This document shows positions 12,302-56,776 of a stretch of DNA of 64,000 bases, piece by piece. The stretch is from Chryseobacterium mulctrae (GTDB lineage Bacteria > Bacteroidota > Bacteroidia > Flavobacteriales > Weeksellaceae), in assembly GCF_006175945.1 (NCBI RefSeq), contig NZ_VAJL01000001.1, forward strand, positions 3,171,001-3,235,000, in the 5' to 3' direction. How positions within the stretch are numbered: position 1 is the stretch's first letter; each line of letters starts with the position of its first letter. Below the pieces are notes generated by a model that saw only the letters and a list, made by a program, of their open reading frames with translations, was not told the DNA's origin and did no database searches. The position numbers were made by a program, and so were the translations under genes.

Positions 12302-12561
12302 AATTTATTTGTCATTGTGATGAGCGAAAAAACAATCTCAGAATCACTCATTGTTATTTATTAGTAGTATTTTTTAAGAAGCTTTTTCCCGCTTTCCGCT
12401 TTATCTTTTGTTCCGCTGCGCTGCACAAAAGGATGTCACTGCAATCGGGGCTAATAAAATTGTAGTGTTTAAAACCAAACGAGGAGTGAAACGACGTAGC
12501 GATTTCAAATATATTCTCAATCATGTCAACCTCCATCACCCAGCTTCAAACCTCCATCTTC
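12302..12561. repeat. Gene-free stretch built of dispersed intergenic repeat sequence
   Basis: A 260-bp gap holding text that does not look coding: TTGTCATTGTGATGAGCG near 12307, then CCGCTTTCCGCTTTATC (about 12390), the imperfect hairpin TTTTGTTCCGCTGCGCTGC/ACAAAA and GGGGCTAATAAAATTGTAG. The minus-strand ORF across it (12354-12539) is rejected because it has no homologue I recognise and consists of this repeat. Similar decayed blocks are, as far as I recall, scattered between genes of Chryseobacterium. Confidence 0.45.
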
Positions 12562-43636: not shown

Positions 43637-43929
43637 AGTGTGTGGTTTAAAAATTGCAATAAAAATTTGTAAATAGTTTATATTTTTAATTAATTTTTTA
43701 TTTTTAATTTAAAAAATTAATTAAAATAATTAAAATTTAGTACTTGAAAGAATTTTTTTAACAATAGAAAAACAACTATGTTTCATAAAGAAGCAATAAT
43801 TAACATAAATATTTTTTAATTTATTATTTGTAATTCAAATATTTTTCTCACCTTTGTTGCTCGAAATAATTTTTTTTCATCATTTGTGTTTTTACCTCCT
43901 TGTAATAATATTGCAAGGAGGTTTTGTTT
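43637..43929. other. Gene-free AT-rich interval upstream of asnB
   Basis: About 290 bp with no plausible protein. Left half is almost only A and T. On its right is a strong hairpin (43893-43930) whose T tract points in the plus direction although no plus-strand gene ends here, so an unannotated plus-strand RNA is possible. Confidence 0.4.
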
Positions 43930-43930
43930 T
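43893..43930 (+). terminator. Orphan plus-strand terminator-like hairpin
   Basis: ACCTCCTTG / CAAGGAGGT stem with an AT loop followed by TTTGTTTTT on the plus strand; on the minus strand it is followed by A-rich DNA, so it is an unlikely terminator for the gene ending at 43930. Confidence 0.55.
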
Positions 43931-45594
43931 TACTCATTTCCTAGTAAAACACCTGAAATATTCCATGCACTGAAGCTCGTTCCTTCTGGTTCTCCCTGCG
44001 GAATTTTCACCTGAATTGTATGTTTTCCAGCTTTTAAATTACCTAAAGAAATGAAGTTTGGATTGGTTACCGTTCCGGGACACCAATTTGATCTGCTTAT
44101 ATCTGAAGAAGAAAGTCCGTCTGCGAAATTTCCGGAAGCCGGATTAAACAATCGGTAAGACGCGCATTCTGTTCTCCAGGGTGTAAAAGAGAAGCTTAAT
44201 TTTCCGTCTACATAAATTGAATTGGCTTTCGGGATGAATTCGTCACCATTTTCCCAACCTCCATGTCCGGTTGTAATGTATCTTAACTGTGCATTTTTAA
44301 GATCTTTTTCTAAATTAAATTCTACAAAAAGTCCTTTGTCATTATTAAACATTGTTGCATAATCCTGACCCGCCATTTCCATAATATTAGTCGTGTTGAA
44401 AAGCGGAATGACCTTATTGTTTTTATTAACAATTTGTTCGCTGTTGTGGATGGTAATATCTAAACTTACTTTATGACCGCCTTTGTCATAATTTCCAATG
44501 AAAGTTCCAATCCAAAGTTCTTTTTCTGAAAGGGAAGGTTTTAATTCTGTAATATCCTGACGAAACGGACTTACCGTTTGCCAAGTTTTATCCTTTAACT
44601 CAATATGATTGAACTTGTTGATTCCGAAAGCGGTAAAAAATCTCATCAATTCAACTGTCGGTTGATAATTTTGATTGGAAACAACTCCGTGATATTGTTT
44701 TCCGTTGCCATTTTCGTATACAGGAAGTGTTTTTGCTCCTTTTTCTAAACCATCAAAAAACGTCTGAGACTTTTCTTCAGGAATAAAAAATACAGTTCCG
44801 GTTCTGTCGTAAGCGTCACCGTTGGATTGTTGCTTTAATTCTACAAAAATATTATCGCCCTGAGCAATTTTTGGAAACTTTACCTTCTTTAAAATAATCG
44901 TTCCGTTGGCAAATCTTTTTATTTTTTCATCAGATTTTGACTGATCTGAGAAATTGATAATTTCATTTTCAAAAACTTTTAACGTTGTAAATCTGCTTTT
45001 CCAAAGAAGATCTTTATAGCTCAATAAATCTGTAGTAGAGATCGTTTTATTGATAATCTTGTCAATTCCTGTTGTTTTAATTTTCTTTAAAGAAACTGCA
45101 GTTGTTGCAGAATTTCCGTTTCTTTCAACCTGCAAAACCAAGCCTAAGTTTTGTCCCAAACTTGATGGTCCGCCTTTTATTTTTAAATCATTGGTGTACC
45201 AAACTTCAATGGTATTCGAGTTGATTTTTGTAACTGCTTTTTTACAATTGTAGCCTAAGATCTTTTTAGTTTGAGTAGTTAATTCGAATTCCTGTTTAGC
45301 AATCGATTCTTTGTCTGAAGTGGAAATAGCTTCATTCGGTTTTAAAAATGCATAAGAAATAATCGTGTTTGAAGGCTTTTCAATTTTGCTGATTTCAAAA
45401 GGATAATCGCTTTTTTGTTCTTTAATTTTTGTATTTAAAATAAAGTTTTCATTTTCATTTACCCAAACAATTGTCTGGTTCTGATTAGGTTGAGCTTTTC
45501 CGTTGTACGAACTTTCATATTGAATTTCGTAAGTCTGCGAAAAACTCAAAACAGATAATAAAATAAAAAAACTTGCTAAAATAGATTTAAACAT
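43930..45594 (-). CDS. GLPGLI domain fused to PNGase F-like peptide:N-glycosidase
   Basis: A 554-aa exported protein (signal peptide ending LSFSQ, about residue 20). Residues 21-190 look like a GLPGLI domain (GYNCKKAVTKI, VWYTNDLKIKGGPSSLGQNLGLVLQV). The rest resembles the two jelly-roll domains of Elizabethkingia PNGase F: SNGDAYDRTGTVFFIPE matches the catalytic Asp segment, and the second domain has GHGGWENGDEF, RTECASYRLFNPASGNF and SRSNWCPGT. PNGase F removes N-glycans from glycoproteins. Activity here is probable, not certain. Its own promoter box is at 45614. Confidence 0.85.
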   Translation of the reverse strand: MFKSILASFFILLSVLSFSQTYEIQYESSYNGKAQPNQNQTIVWVNENENFILNTKIKEQKSDYPFEISKIEKPSNTIISYAFLKPNEAISTSDKESIAKQEFELTTQTKKILGYNCKKAVTKINSNTIEVWYTNDLKIKGGPSSLGQNLGLVLQVERNGNSATTAVSLKKIKTTGIDKIINKTISTTDLLSYKDLLWKSRFTTLKVFENEIINFSDQSKSDEKIKRFANGTIILKKVKFPKIAQGDNIFVELKQQSNGDAYDRTGTVFFIPEEKSQTFFDGLEKGAKTLPVYENGNGKQYHGVVSNQNYQPTVELMRFFTAFGINKFNHIELKDKTWQTVSPFRQDITELKPSLSEKELWIGTFIGNYDKGGHKVSLDITIHNSEQIVNKNNKVIPLFNTTNIMEMAGQDYATMFNNDKGLFVEFNLEKDLKNAQLRYITTGHGGWENGDEFIPKANSIYVDGKLSFSFTPWRTECASYRLFNPASGNFADGLSSSDISRSNWCPGTVTNPNFISLGNLKAGKHTIQVKIPQGEPEGTSFSAWNISGVLLGNE

Positions 45595-52412: not shown

Positions 52413-54158
52413 ATGTATATGAAGTCAACAGATAGCCAACCTAAAGCGTTAAATTTTAGATTCAGAAAAATCGTTCATTACTCTCTTATCTTTTGTATTT
52501 TATTGATACAGCTTATCATTGCAGGCTTTTTTTATAACGAATTTATCAATAGAAAGAATTTAGCATTCATTGAAAATCAGTTAAAAGAAGTAAATTCTCT
52601 TGAAAAATTAACAGATAACTCCAGAAAAGAGCTTTTAAACGCTCAAAATTCTCTTCAGCAATATCTTGTAAATGCTGACAAAAAGTATTTGGATTCTTAT
52701 TTTGCTTCGTTAGATAAATTAGGCGCAAATTTAGACAACATTAATAGCTATGAGGCTAAATTTCCTAAATTAAAAAATATATTATCATTTCAAAAAAAAG
52801 ACTCTTTAGGCAGTAAAAACCTGAAGCTTTTGGTTGATTCTACTTATCAATATTCTACCCAATCAAATTTTAAAGCTCCCACTCCTTTACCTTCGCTGAA
52901 AAAGTATGAGAGCAATTATAATTTGGATAAATATGATTTTCAAGTAGAAACAAAAACGATTGCTGATACGGTTAAGAAAAAAGGTCTTTTCGGACGTTTG
53001 GGAGATGCAATATCCGGGAAAGAGAACGTACGTAAAGAGAGTACAATTATTACCGTGAAGCAAGGAAAGATCCCTGAAGCAACTGCTATAAAAGCTGATG
53101 TAGACAGTGTAATGAATCTTGTTCAAAATTATTATACCGGAGAAATAAAGAAAATGCAGGTGCAGGTAATCGGAAAACAAAATAACAACAATAAATTTTA
53201 TACTATATTTAATAAACTTCTTATTTATAGTAATGGGGTGATGAATATTTATGATTTTGCGATCAAAGATTCTAAAGCCGATCTTGAAAAAGAATATGCT
53301 TTACAAAATTCTGAAAACAATAAGATTAGAACAAATCTGATTTTGGGAGCAATGGTTTTGATGTTTATTGTGTCTATATTAATAATGTATTTGACCAGAA
53401 TCGCATTTGTATATGAAAACCAACTCAATGCAGCCAACAAGCAGATTAAAGAGAACCTTAATTTTAAAAACAGAATTTTGGGAATGTTGAGTCATGAACT
53501 GCGTTCGCCGTTGAAGATTATTGGAATTTTCATCAGAAAAATCAATAAAAAAACCAATGATGACAGTATTAAAGAATATTTAAAGTCGATCAGTTTTACC
53601 AATAATACCTTATTGATGCAGGCCAATCAGATTTTAGAATATACCAAAAATCAACATGTAGAAAACCAGTTAATACCGGTGGTTTTTAATCTTAAAAATG
53701 AAGTAACCTCTATCTTAAATTCGATAGAACCTTATATTGAAACAAGAAATAATAAGTTTATTGTTGAAGAAAGTATAGACCCGAAAATTGAGGTGTATTC
53801 TGATAATACAAAGATCAATCAGGTTTTTATGAATATACTTGCCAATGCAAATAAATTTACTGAGAACGGAGAAATACGTGTGATAACAAAAGCAGAGTCT
53901 GTTGATGAAAATACGGTTGCTTTAATCACCACAATAAAAGATACCGGAGTTGGAATTTCAAAATCTGATCTTGAAAAAATATTTGAACCCTATTACCAAG
54001 GAGTTCTTTCGGAAGATGTAGAGAACTTAGGTGCGGGTTTAGGATTGAGCTTATGTAAGGAAATTGTAGAGCTGTATTCTGGGGATATCTCGGTAGACAG
54101 CGAGCAAAACGTAGGTACAACAGTGCGTTTCACAATTAATTTGAATGTCAATAAATGA
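52413..54158 (+). CDS. Membrane sensor histidine kinase
   Basis: A 581-aa sensor kinase. One helix near residues 22-44 and another at about 306-328 frame a periplasmic or 260-residue sensor region rich in coiled coil (LKEVNSLEKLTDNSRKELL). The HisKA domain carries the phospho-acceptor His361 in GMLSHELRSPLKI. The ATPase has N box NILANANKFTENG, D box DTGVGISKSDLEKIFEPYYQ and G box GAGLGLSLCKEI. It ends by overlapping the response regulator by 4 bp (ATGA), so translation is coupled. The stimulus is unknown. Confidence 0.95.
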   Translation: MYMKSTDSQPKALNFRFRKIVHYSLIFCILLIQLIIAGFFYNEFINRKNLAFIENQLKEVNSLEKLTDNSRKELLNAQNSLQQYLVNADKKYLDSYFASLDKLGANLDNINSYEAKFPKLKNILSFQKKDSLGSKNLKLLVDSTYQYSTQSNFKAPTPLPSLKKYESNYNLDKYDFQVETKTIADTVKKKGLFGRLGDAISGKENVRKESTIITVKQGKIPEATAIKADVDSVMNLVQNYYTGEIKKMQVQVIGKQNNNNKFYTIFNKLLIYSNGVMNIYDFAIKDSKADLEKEYALQNSENNKIRTNLILGAMVLMFIVSILIMYLTRIAFVYENQLNAANKQIKENLNFKNRILGMLSHELRSPLKIIGIFIRKINKKTNDDSIKEYLKSISFTNNTLLMQANQILEYTKNQHVENQLIPVVFNLKNEVTSILNSIEPYIETRNNKFIVEESIDPKIEVYSDNTKINQVFMNILANANKFTENGEIRVITKAESVDENTVALITTIKDTGVGISKSDLEKIFEPYYQGVLSEDVENLGAGLGLSLCKEIVELYSGDISVDSEQNVGTTVRFTINLNVNK

Positions 54159-54799
54159 GTAATCTAGATACTAAAACCATTAATTTTTTACTTGCTGATG
54201 ATCATAGTCTCATAAGGCAGGGCGTAGAATTTCTTATTGAGGAGATTGGTTTTGAGGGAGGCGTTTTTCATGCATCTACACTTCAGAAGGTCTTAGAAAC
54301 TGTTGAAATGCAGCAAATAGAAATTGTTGTAATAGATGCTATTTTCCCAGACGGAAATAGCCTGAATATAATTTCTGAAATCAAAAGCATCAAACCTGAA
54401 GTTAAGATTCTAGTTTTTTCAGGAGTTGATGAAAGTACACAGTCTATTAAATATATTAATGCAGGAGCAAACGGATTTCTCAGCAAGCTGAGTGAAGAAA
54501 ACGAAATAAAAGAAGCGATTCTCAAAATTCATCAAACCGGAAAATATATTTCTTCAATTACGCAGGGTTTATTAATAGATTCATTACAGAATCGTAACAT
54601 CATCAACCCTTTACAAAAACTCACGGAAAGAGAACTGGAAATTGCAGAGATGTACGCAAAAGGATATGGTAATTTAGAAATTGCAAATAATCTTAACGTA
54701 AAGCAGAACACCATAAGTACAATCAAAAAAAGAATTTTTGATAAACTGCATATCGAGAATGTAGTTGATTTGGCAGATCTAATCAAAAATTATCATTAG
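54155..54799 (+). CDS. NarL/LuxR-type response regulator
   Basis: A 214-aa partner of the kinase above. Receiver domain (1-125): acidic pair Asp15-Asp16, phospho-acceptor Asp61 in VVIDAIFPDG, and Lys111 in LSKLSEE. LuxR-type helix-turn-helix at 149-210: LTERELEIAEMYAKG and NVKQNTISTIKKRIFDKL. It is followed by 1.2 kb of non-coding DNA with two copies of a transcribed-looking unit, each with a 16-bp palindrome suited to a dimeric regulator of this kind. Confidence 0.96.
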   Translation: MSNLDTKTINFLLADDHSLIRQGVEFLIEEIGFEGGVFHASTLQKVLETVEMQQIEIVVIDAIFPDGNSLNIISEIKSIKPEVKILVFSGVDESTQSIKYINAGANGFLSKLSEENEIKEAILKIHQTGKYISSITQGLLIDSLQNRNIINPLQKLTERELEIAEMYAKGYGNLEIANNLNVKQNTISTIKKRIFDKLHIENVVDLADLIKNYH

Positions 54800-54832
54800 T
54801 CTTTCTTATTTCCCATTCAGATTAATATAGTA

Positions 54833-54870
54833 GTAGATAAATATCTACAACTATATCGAAATACATCTAC
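54833..54870 (+). promoter_or_regulatory. Candidate operator, copy A
   Basis: Perfect palindrome GTAGATAAATATCTAC at 54833-54848, then a further half-site CATCTAC at 54864-54870. Centred about 76 and 50 bp upstream of the expected transcription start; conserved in copy B. A dimeric LuxR-type regulator is the obvious candidate ligand. Confidence 0.6.
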
Positions 54871-54878
54871 AATACTTA

Positions 54879-54911
54879 TTGGGAAGATAGCTCTATATCT
54901 TTCTATTTTTG
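54879..54911 (+). promoter_or_regulatory. Promoter of non-coding unit A
   Basis: TTG (54879-54881), 22 bp spacer, TATTTTTG (54904-54911). The spacer length is identical in copy B. Confidence 0.65.
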
Positions 54912-54915
54912 CACT

Positions 54916-54969
54916 ATGAAAGATGAACAAAAAAGAAGTTCTTTTAAGGACGTTTTTTTGAGTCATTAA
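54916..54969 (+). CDS. Possible leaderless 17-aa peptide, unit A
   Basis: ATG 4 bp after the -7 box encodes MKDEQKRSSFKDVFLSH and stop. Copy B has an ORF of the same length and stop position. All seven codon changes between the copies alter the amino acid, which weakens the coding case; frame and length conservation support it. Confidence 0.3.
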   Translation: MKDEQKRSSFKDVFLSH

Positions 54970-55339
54970 TCAAAAAGTAAGTTCAGAGTTTTTTAATCTT
55001 CAATAAGATGAATTTTAAATTTTGAACTTGTTTGAAAACATAGATGATGAAAAAAGAATAAGTGTCTGATTGCGGAGCTGAAAGGCTCTGCGAAAAGATA
55101 CTAAAAAGTAAAACCAAATTTTATTATAACTATAAACACAGTTGATTAACCTAAGTGTCATCATTGCAGAGCTGAAAAGCTCTGTAAAAGATGCCTTATA
55201 ATCAATAAAGATATTGATAAAAACACAAATGATAAAGCCGTGACTAATTGCGGAATTGAAAAAAGTAATATGCACTGGGAAAGTTTTTCCATATTACTCC
55301 CTAGAAAATGATTTCAAAAGCATGTTAATTTAGGTTGGT

Positions 55340-55371
55340 AATCCTCCGGAATTTTTACGGAGGATTTTTTA
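55340..55371 (+). terminator. Terminator of unit A
   Basis: AATCCTCCG / CGGAGGATT stem followed by a T run; preceded by GTTAATTTAGGTTG, which is also present in copy B. Confidence 0.85.
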
Positions 55372-55463
55372 TTTACTCAACTTCTTACGTTATTACTATC
55401 TATTTTAAAGATTTATTCACAGAAGGCTTGTCGATTATATTCATTGTTGCTCCATGATGATTT

Positions 55464-55501
55464 GTAGATAAATATCTACAACTAGGTCGAACTACATCTA
55501 C
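55464..55501 (+). promoter_or_regulatory. Candidate operator, copy B
   Basis: The same palindrome GTAGATAAATATCTAC at 55464-55479 and half-site CATCTAC at 55495-55501, with identical spacing to copy A. Both survive while flanking bases have drifted. Confidence 0.6.
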
Positions 55502-55509
55502 AATAAATA

Positions 55510-55542
55510 TTGTGAAGATAGCCCTATGTCTTTCTATTTTTA
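55510..55542 (+). promoter_or_regulatory. Promoter of non-coding unit B
   Basis: TTG (55510-55512), 22 bp spacer, TATTTTTA (55535-55542). The last base of the -7 box is A rather than G, so B may be weaker than A. Confidence 0.55.
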
Positions 55543-55546
55543 CACT

Positions 55547-55600
55547 ATGAAAGATGGACGTAAAAGAATTTCTTTAAAGGCAATTTTTTTGAGACATTAA
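55547..55600 (+). CDS. Possible leaderless 17-aa peptide, unit B
   Basis: Encodes MKDGRKRISLKAIFLRH, the counterpart of the unit A peptide, with the same stop position. Basic and short; evidence is positional only. Confidence 0.3.
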   Translation: MKDGRKRISLKAIFLRH

Positions 55601-55977
55601 TCTAAAGTAAGTTCAGGATTTTAAAATATGTCAATAATAGAAATTTTAAATTTTGAAGTTGGTTTGAAAACATACATGATGAGAAAAGAAAAAGTGTCTG
55701 ATTGCAGAGCTGAAAAGCTCTGCAAAACGATACTAAAAAGTAAAACCAAAACTTATTTAGTCTGTAAACACAATTGATTAACCTAAGTGTCATCATTGCA
55801 GAGCTGAAAAGCTCTGTAAAAGATGCCTTAAAAATCAATCAAAATAGTTATAAAAACACAAATGATAAAACCCTAAGTGATATTTACAAAGTTAAAAGGT
55901 TTGTATAATACGCAAAGGGAAAGTTTTTCATAAATACCTGGGAAAGTAATTTCGCAAGTATGTTAATTTAGGTTGAT

Positions 55978-56010
55978 AAGCCTCTGGAAACTCCGGAGGC
56001 TTTTTTTATT
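55978..56010. terminator. Terminator of unit B, shared with the convergent gene
   Basis: AGCCTCTGG / CCGGAGGCT stem (one G-U) followed by seven T on the plus strand; it abuts the stop codon of the minus-strand DUF3108 gene. Confidence 0.85.
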
Positions 56011-56776
56011 TTGTAAACTTTAACGGAAATTTTACATTCTTGTAATCATCAATACTTGCTTTTAAAGAGCCAACGGCCAATTCAGCTTTCAGTAACAAAG
56101 GAATGTGATTGTAGTCATTACTTACCCACATTGTTACTCCTTCTTTTTCTTTAAAAACCCTACCACTTTTTACCGAAGGAATAATTTTTAAAGCATTAAT
56201 AGTTCCGAACTTTGTCTTTAAATTCTCAGTTCCGGTTACTTTAAGCTGAAAAGGAAACATTTCATCATCAATCCAGACATTCATATTAATAATGGTTCCT
56301 ACTTTCAGCTCTGCGGGTGTTTTACTTCTCAGATAATAAAAACATGAGAGCATGTCTTGTACGCCTTTTACAGATTTTATAAGCTTTGAACCATTTGCAG
56401 GAGTTTTTTTATCTGTTAAAATCAATGTTTGATTATCGTGATTAAAAACAGTTTGCAAATGCTGTCTGTAACTACCTTCTTTCACATTTCTTACATAAAA
56501 ACTTGGTAATTCTGTATTGATATTAATATAACTTTCATATAAATCTTCAACTTTAAAAAAAGCTTTCACAGCTCCAGTCGTTTGTCCGGTTCCTTTTACA
56601 TATAAATGTGGAGTTCCTCTGTAATTGACTTTTTGGGTGGTGAGATTTGCTGTTCCGGCATTTAGAAATCCGTAATGTATTCTTAAGGAGATCGATTCGC
56701 CATCGGCTACGTTGGTCAATTGGGAATAACCTAAAAAGAAAGCGAATATGGTAATAATGTGGAGTATCTTCTTCAT
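56006..56776 (-). CDS. DUF3108 periplasmic protein
   Basis: A 256-aa exported protein (signal peptide ending LGYSQ near residue 19). The DUF3108 pattern is visible: SISLRIHYGFLNAGTANL, LYVKGTGQTTGAVKAFFKV, ELPSFYVRNVKEGSYRQ, and VTMWVSNDYNHIPLLLKAEL near the end. It is thought to have a lipoprotein-carrier-like beta fold; function unknown. Converges with unit B of the non-coding region. Confidence 0.9.
   Translation of the reverse strand: MKKILHIITIFAFFLGYSQLTNVADGESISLRIHYGFLNAGTANLTTQKVNYRGTPHLYVKGTGQTTGAVKAFFKVEDLYESYININTELPSFYVRNVKEGSYRQHLQTVFNHDNQTLILTDKKTPANGSKLIKSVKGVQDMLSCFYYLRSKTPAELKVGTIINMNVWIDDEMFPFQLKVTGTENLKTKFGTINALKIIPSVKSGRVFKEKEGVTMWVSNDYNHIPLLLKAELAVGSLKASIDDYKNVKFPLKFTK

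Follow-up and report, generated by a model that had tools for sequence, protein, structure and literature searches.

A two-component system in Chryseobacterium that probably drives multi-site sponge RNAs against a paralogous sRNA family

Post-transcriptional control is thinly studied in the Flavobacteriia. In the Gac/Rsm system, RsmY and RsmZ share an upstream palindrome and act as decoys; we know of no CsrA/RsmA in the Bacteroidota. SroC, ChbBC and 3'ETS-leuZ are sponges that titrate an sRNA by base pairing, and they are derived from mRNAs or tRNA spacers. Published abstracts describe the activation of RsmY and RsmZ by GacS/GacA. The multicopy LhrC sRNAs of Listeria are tied to the two-component system LisRK (PMC4132741), and for GlmY/GlmZ the QseEF two-component system is reported to activate GlmY, an RNA that decoys the protein RapZ (PMC7073468, PMC6075780). 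An account of Bacteroides thetaiotaomicron describes FopS/GibS as multicopy sRNAs with a single-stranded seed followed by a terminator, the seed pairing near start codons, and describes Bacteroides RbpB as binding FopS sRNAs and antagonising their repression of SusC translation (PMC11697453).

The window analyzed here is a stretch of 64,000 nucleotides from the 4.87 Mb genome of Chryseobacterium mulctrae (G000); features lie on its plus strand unless stated otherwise. The order is a sensor histidine kinase, a LuxR-type regulator, two tandem non-coding units and a convergent DUF3108 gene. The kinase (581 aa, 52413..54158) has the Pfam domain HATPase_c, its HisKA match of 25.5 bits is slightly below the cut-off of 26.9, and no sensor domain was recognized in the Pfam search. 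The response regulator (54155..54799) combines REC with a LuxR/GerE HTH (Pfam Response_reg and GerE). The domains agree with the first-pass annotation, which had placed a histidine kinase/LuxR-type operon directly before the units. A kinase match at E ≤ 1e-60 was found in 112 of 118 genus genomes, and the kinases of C. balustinum and Chryseobacterium sp. BGARF1 share 97% identity with that of the window and the same gene order. The Riemerella pair RAYM_RS09735/40 was ruled out as the same system, the regulator there being described as OmpR-type.

The two units are 82% identical over query positions 9-550 (~540 nt, blastn, E 3.9e-151). The repeat scan returned direct copies of 143 nt at 87% identity with a spacing of 631 and of 189 nt at 88% with a spacing of 632, followed by spacings of 633-640 further downstream, as expected from the two diverged copies at a period of 631-632 bp that had been described. 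Each unit opens with the palindrome GTAGATAAATATCTAC, with a related half, CGANNTANATCTA, 22 bp further. Operator 1 (54832..54869) consists of GTAGATAAATATCTAC and the second site CGAAATACATCTA, 22 bp apart, and is followed by a promoter box of the TAnnTTTG type, TATTTTTG (54904..54911), whose end is 80 nt from the operator start. Operator 2 lies at 55463..55500 and promoter box 2, TATTTTTA, at 55535..55542. The shared palindrome, the promoter with an identical 22-bp spacer (TTG-N22-TATTTTT(G/A)) and the hairpins 94 nt apart, all reported earlier, were present in both copies, as was an intrinsic terminator: terminator 2 (55978..56010) was the one terminator found by the scan, against 0.3 expected, and terminator 1 (55340..55373, stem 55340-55366 plus T run) was read directly, by eye and from inverted repeat I20. 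The putative sponge RNA 1 would extend from 54917, a start predicted from the promoter box, to 55375 at the terminator, and sponge RNA 2 from a predicted start at 55548 to 56012. A sigma-70 scan gave no excess and was set aside, the sigma-70 model being ill-suited to the phylum.

The first-pass annotation had proposed an Rfam/Infernal search; neither unit matched a family at the gathering score, and six unit and sRNA loci gave nothing relevant at E ≤ 2. The covariance model of Flavo-1 RNA (RF01705) had no match in the units. Its sole match in the window, at 12381-12456 on the minus strand (64.5 bits), has an aligned sequence without a AAACACAAATGATGAAA-type motif. Antisense open reading frames showed no clear coding signal, with 7/4/9 differences at codon positions 1/2/3 and only 20 in all, and the protein-coding reading was dropped on this weak test. 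Features beyond the earlier description are the second binding half, repeated AAACACAAATGATGAAA sites, a unit beside guaB and a complementary sRNA-like gene in the window.

Of 131 loci, mostly from Chryseobacterium and Epilithonimonas, 129 had the double operator site 3' of the regulator gene when at least 21 of 31 letters were required; at this threshold the backward reading of the same stretches gave 9 hits. These loci are the window, 60 loci of one set (L056-L115) and 70 of another (L116-L185), with some genomes in both; the operator count covers both sets, and the site counts, spacings and GGA counts given below cover the window and L116-L185. In the two misses, L093 and L135, the operator overlaps the region start or has altered spacing. 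The loci of the set L116-L185 carry 1 to 5 units each, L147 apart, where the sole operator site is 3.5 kb off. In 80 of 83 distinct units, 79-80 nt separate the operator start from the end of the box, a raw count with a loosely defined box (TAnnTTT(G/A/C)), and this constancy was not built into the search. In several species, variants of a second palindromic element, TTTTTAATTACTGACCTAAGAAACAAAACGTAATTAAAAAC, recur 3' of the units, past the unit terminator (L063, L064, L066, L068, L070, L093 and L203). At six loci from Epilithonimonas and near loci (L138, L141, L146, L148, L130 and L155), the unit extends to a gene for a small protein and inspection by eye showed no terminator; the RNA there may therefore double as a leader.

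Operators were also found away from the kinase. The G000 genome matched the operator pattern (≤3 mismatches) at three places, the two units and a site beside guaB (C1:2704763); the guaB unit (L003) has its box at 79 nt and shares the repeated motif with the other two, its hairpins resemble theirs, and the 3.1 kb read there contain no kinase-regulator pair. G008 and G073 have operator-driven units beside a pheS-like gene (identified by eye), again with the box at 79 nt, and the kinase elsewhere. The 79-nt spacing thus holds at four units distant from the kinase in these three genomes, and in G071 operator and kinase are on different contigs. This pattern with ≤3 mismatches is a stricter one and matched in only 28 of 60 genus genomes (reversed control, 0/60), as some of the genus has a different operator. 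A broader pattern, tuned on kinase-positive loci, matched in 11/11 kinase-positive and 0/23 kinase-negative chosen genomes (reversed control, 0; Fisher p = 3.5e-9, with genomes treated as independent of phylogeny). Judged by sequence and co-occurrence, the LuxR-type regulator appears to act at the upstream palindrome of the paralogous RNAs.

The units carry repeats of AAACACAAATGATGAAA. The two window units have six such sites at 13-16 of 17 letters: 55036..55052 (15/17), a weak one at 55134..55150 (13/17) and 55221..55237 (15/17) in unit 1, and 55668..55684 (14/17), 55766..55782 (14/17) and 55854..55870 (16/17) in unit 2. At 14 or more of 17 letters, 161 sites were counted in 89 units, compared with 1.9 after dinucleotide shuffling of the units and 8.5 when the motif was shuffled; where the operator of a locus scored below 23/31, the whole downstream region was used from its first position. 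The 14 of 89 units without such a site were mostly from Chryseobacterium with 56-59% kinase identity, plus Epilithonimonas mollis. The predicted unpaired probability averaged 0.64 at the sites, compared with 0.41 in the rest of the unit and 0.49 in A-rich windows other than the sites, and the sites were more unpaired than the rest of the unit in 66 of the 69 units that have them. The sequence AACACAAATGATGAAA was present in all 60 genus genomes examined, and its reversed control in none.

Read as its reverse complement, AAACACAAATGATGAAA forms the constant segment of another family of genes, short and sRNA-like, each arranged as promoter, UUUUCAUCAUUUGUGUUUUU and terminator. At 12 of 19 motif places examined, the opposite strand shows a promoter-like box, often a 5' hairpin, then UUUUUUUUCAUCAUUUGUGUUUUUA and a terminator; the constant segment is read on the strand opposite the motif and thus complements the motif of the units. 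An initial reading of the motif as a sense-strand 3'-UTR element was dropped given this arrangement. One such gene, sB (43857..43931, boundaries predicted; constant segment 43870-43894, then a terminator), sits in the window between two minus-strand genes, 11 kb upstream of the units. The G000 genome has four, at C1:2961159, C1:3214874 (sB), C1:4110235 and C1:4431839 (sD). Predicted duplexes with the 32-nt segment of sB reached -27.1 and -23.4 kcal/mol for the window units and -27.8 kcal/mol for the guaB unit, and 0 of 200 shuffles were as low for each of the three. Duplexes with whole sRNAs were mostly inside the shuffle range for the window units and thus uninformative; with the guaB unit, 4 of 4 sRNAs beat shuffles. 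On sequence grounds, the units have the extended complementarity to putative sRNA seeds expected of an sRNA sponge.

Two side observations concern the motif in other settings. Relaxase-like genes carry it in frame, encoding (K/R)NT(N/S)DE, twice and ~210 residues apart in a G000 gene (L259/L267; C1:3351831 and 3352464, a mismatch being present at one of the two) and in L245 and L249, and once in L271 and L280. The L249 gene is MobA/VirD2-like (Pfam; the sole one tested). A random NTNDE would have these codons with a probability of ~0.05, and from their sequence these mobile-element mRNAs may be candidate sRNA targets or decoys. At L253 (G073 C1:1055779-1061951), four exact motif copies lie within ~4.2 kb where no operator was found, and these are possibly operator-free sponge-like RNAs.

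We propose that the two-component system has multi-site sponge RNAs as its main visible output and that these titrate a paralogous sRNA family encoded elsewhere in the genome, a reading to which we give a probability of roughly 0.66. The kinase would phosphorylate the LuxR-type regulator, which would bind a pair of sites separated by 22 bp and lying at a constant 79-80 nt from a TAnnTTTG-type box, and drive RNAs of ~455 nt with conserved hairpins and repeats of AAACACAAAUGAUGAAA. These repeats would pair in the cell with the constant U-rich segment UUUUUUUUCAUCAUUUGUGUUUUUA of expressed sRNAs of ~65-90 nt, as their complementarity suggests. With the system on, several units with several sites each would titrate the sRNA family and lift its repression. 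Because the complement of the segment resembles an A-rich start-codon region, the sRNAs may act like FopS of Bacteroides and block the start of translation, and an RRM protein could serve as chaperone in place of Hfq.

The opposite direction, with the long RNAs as effectors that work by means of their hairpins or of pairing to other targets and the short sRNAs binding and silencing them, is unlikely in our judgment. It draws on the symmetry of complementarity taken alone, on the conservation of the hairpin modules, which makes the long RNA more than a string of sites, and on the search for sRNA mRNA targets. When the segment was compared with the start regions of 749 predicted genes (864 kb of G000), pooled with susC-like genes included unsorted, no clear excess of pairing over shuffled seeds was seen: 29 regions reached -14 kcal/mol versus 18.9 ± 7.0 (7/60 shuffles as high), and 3 reached -18 kcal/mol versus 0.9 (3/60 shuffles as high). 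Against it stand the multiple sites per RNA and the multiple RNAs in some genomes, which fit titration better, and the wider spread of the sRNA-like genes; the direction of our proposal is drawn from these features.

That spread was followed in the family of Chryseobacterium, which we take to be the Weeksellaceae. The segment (≤1 mismatch) was found in 98 of 148 family genomes and 23 of 33 genera, with controls at zero, and the kinase in 60 genomes and 14 genera. Among sampled genomes of the order, 28 of 29 from the family and 0 of 167 others had the exact 19-mer (its reversed control was hit once, in one other genome). The seed pattern was present/absent in 54/6 genomes with the kinase and 44/44 without, an association that is in part circular, since the seed pattern, counted on both strands, also matches the sites in the units. 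In seven other genera inspected, most segment occurrences were again the segment followed by a terminator. Half of the kinase-negative family genomes (44/88) thus retain the pattern; sRNA-like genes persist in many genomes without kinase or operator, so they must have other partners, and being silencers of the long RNAs cannot be their sole task.

The conserved hairpins bear on a further alternative, in which the repeats or hairpins of a Csr/Rsm-type decoy titrate an RNA-binding protein. Each window unit has two hairpin modules, at 55062..55101 (outer stem GTGTC/GATAC, inner stem GCGGAGC/GCTCTGC) and 55156..55195 in unit 1, and at 55694..55733 and 55788..55827 in unit 2. Selection by a pattern with five outer pairs returned 25 modules, 22 distinct; the 22 aligned rows comprise 19 of these (3 left out) and 3 window modules added by hand. 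Across 21 distinct modules, 97.8% of cells were paired, compared with 28.5-47.3% when the structure was slid and 93.2% expected from letter shuffles (above all 500), a count that leans towards structure, since pairing was part of the basis on which modules were picked. The covariation score and the number of cells with both sides changed (18 versus 5.6) were also above all 500 shuffles; the number of pairs with both sides changed (4 versus 2.5, 66/500 shuffles as high) and that of pair types (12 versus 11.3, 214/500 as high) were not. Thus, of five measures in the suggested covariation check of homologues, three exceeded shuffles and two did not. The hairpin structure is well kept, with moderate covariation support.

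A protein decoy is improbable in our view. A regulator with paralogous RNAs bearing repeated motifs fits it, as do repeated hairpins with invariant stem letters and the presence in 39 of 60 family genomes of an RRM_1 protein that is associated with the seed pattern (31/8 versus 6/15, p = 2e-4, genomes treated as independent of phylogeny). GGA was not enriched, however (3.32 per unit versus 4.26 shuffled, 84 units), and a CsrA-type decoy was rejected on these counts. Moreover, most occurrences of the motif outside the units are of its reverse complement, in sRNA-like genes, and this would not be expected if a protein read the sequence. The likeness to GacS/GacA-RsmY/RsmZ noted in the first-pass annotation therefore holds for the shape of the circuit and fails for its chemistry, since GGA is not enriched and the partner looks like RNA. 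The RRM protein may instead, by analogy, be a chaperone standing in for Hfq, which was found in 0 of 60 family genomes by a search positive in 5 of 14 control genomes. An RRM-domain gene of G000 (C1:4422236), an RbpB-like candidate, is ~9.5 kb from sD. A Gac/Rsm-shaped RNA-RNA cascade without detectable Hfq, in which sponge arrays titrate the whole sRNA family, perhaps with an RRM chaperone, is a tentative extension of our proposal, to which we give slightly less than even odds.

The sRNA-like genes were collected by the exact core TTTTCATCATTTGTGTTT plus a terminator, so the invariance of the constant segment is by construction; 30 of 76 members were aligned. The core had 118 distinct occurrences in the fetched DNA, 76 with a terminator next. 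The other 42 fall into 33 loci: 21 operator-driven units, 6 long open reading frames and 6 unexplained (L253, L292, L318, L326, L327 and L330). That the short elements are 3'-end or terminator elements rather than sRNA genes, with complementarity of another cause, is very improbable: the terminator was itself a selection criterion for the 76, and only 45 of them (raw count) have a TAnnTTTN box within 70 nt upstream, but sB, lying between two opposite-strand genes, is the 3' end of neither, and the 5' parts and terminator stems that accompany the segment are unrelated from one occurrence to the next. For Chryseobacterium sp. HGX-24, a table gives sRNA-mapped reads of ~9% in three samples and ~40% in three others, and the text calls them very low (PMC13209784).

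More distant relatives of the kinase point to a related circuit. Of 20 such loci, 7 have an operator and a unit-like RNA (degenerate in L297), and 11 have an operator-like site directly 5' of a family-2 glycosyltransferase-like gene (L289-L291, L298-L300 and L302-L306), some with only the second operator half; the likeness was judged by eye, and Pfam was searched with 1 of the 11. Neither arrangement occurs at L301 or L307, and G196 has both kinds. This suggests that the sponge module and surface-polysaccharide control are alternatives of one circuit. Because related pairs have an operator-like site before a family-2 glycosyltransferase gene, the sponge cascade may have been inserted into a surface-polysaccharide circuit. 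The related circuit, with its apparent direct control of a polysaccharide enzyme, offers a contrast for asking why there is a sponge layer at all. Together, the results identify the two members of a likely regulatory RNA pair, a signal system that seems to control one of the two and a candidate chaperone, and provide a directly testable case of a two-component system with sRNA titration as its output.

The first-pass annotation knew of no described Bacteroidota system of this form, and none was recognized in the open-licence PubMed Central literature. As in Gac/Rsm of Pseudomonas, a two-component system would drive paralogous non-coding RNAs through a shared upstream palindrome; unlike it, the partner here is an RNA family by complementarity, the kinase and regulator adjoin most of the RNAs, and the phylum is different. 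GlmY decoys the protein RapZ, whereas the decoyed partner here looks like an RNA family. The difference from LhrC/LisRK is that the system here appears to control RNAs complementary to sRNAs and not the sRNAs themselves. SroC, ChbBC and 3'ETS-leuZ differ in origin, the units here being dedicated genes, often in tandem, with several sites each and apparently under one response regulator. The sRNA-like genes resemble FopS/GibS in having a single-stranded seed followed by a terminator and several paralogs (four in G000), and the RRM-type partner RbpB has a counterpart in the candidate RRM protein. They differ from FopS in that the exact segment is confined to the Chryseobacterium family in the order sample, and the sRNA loci were unmatched in Rfam at E ≤ 2, whether or not a FopS model is in that Rfam copy. 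The word 'sponge' is not used in the FopS paper (PMC11697453).
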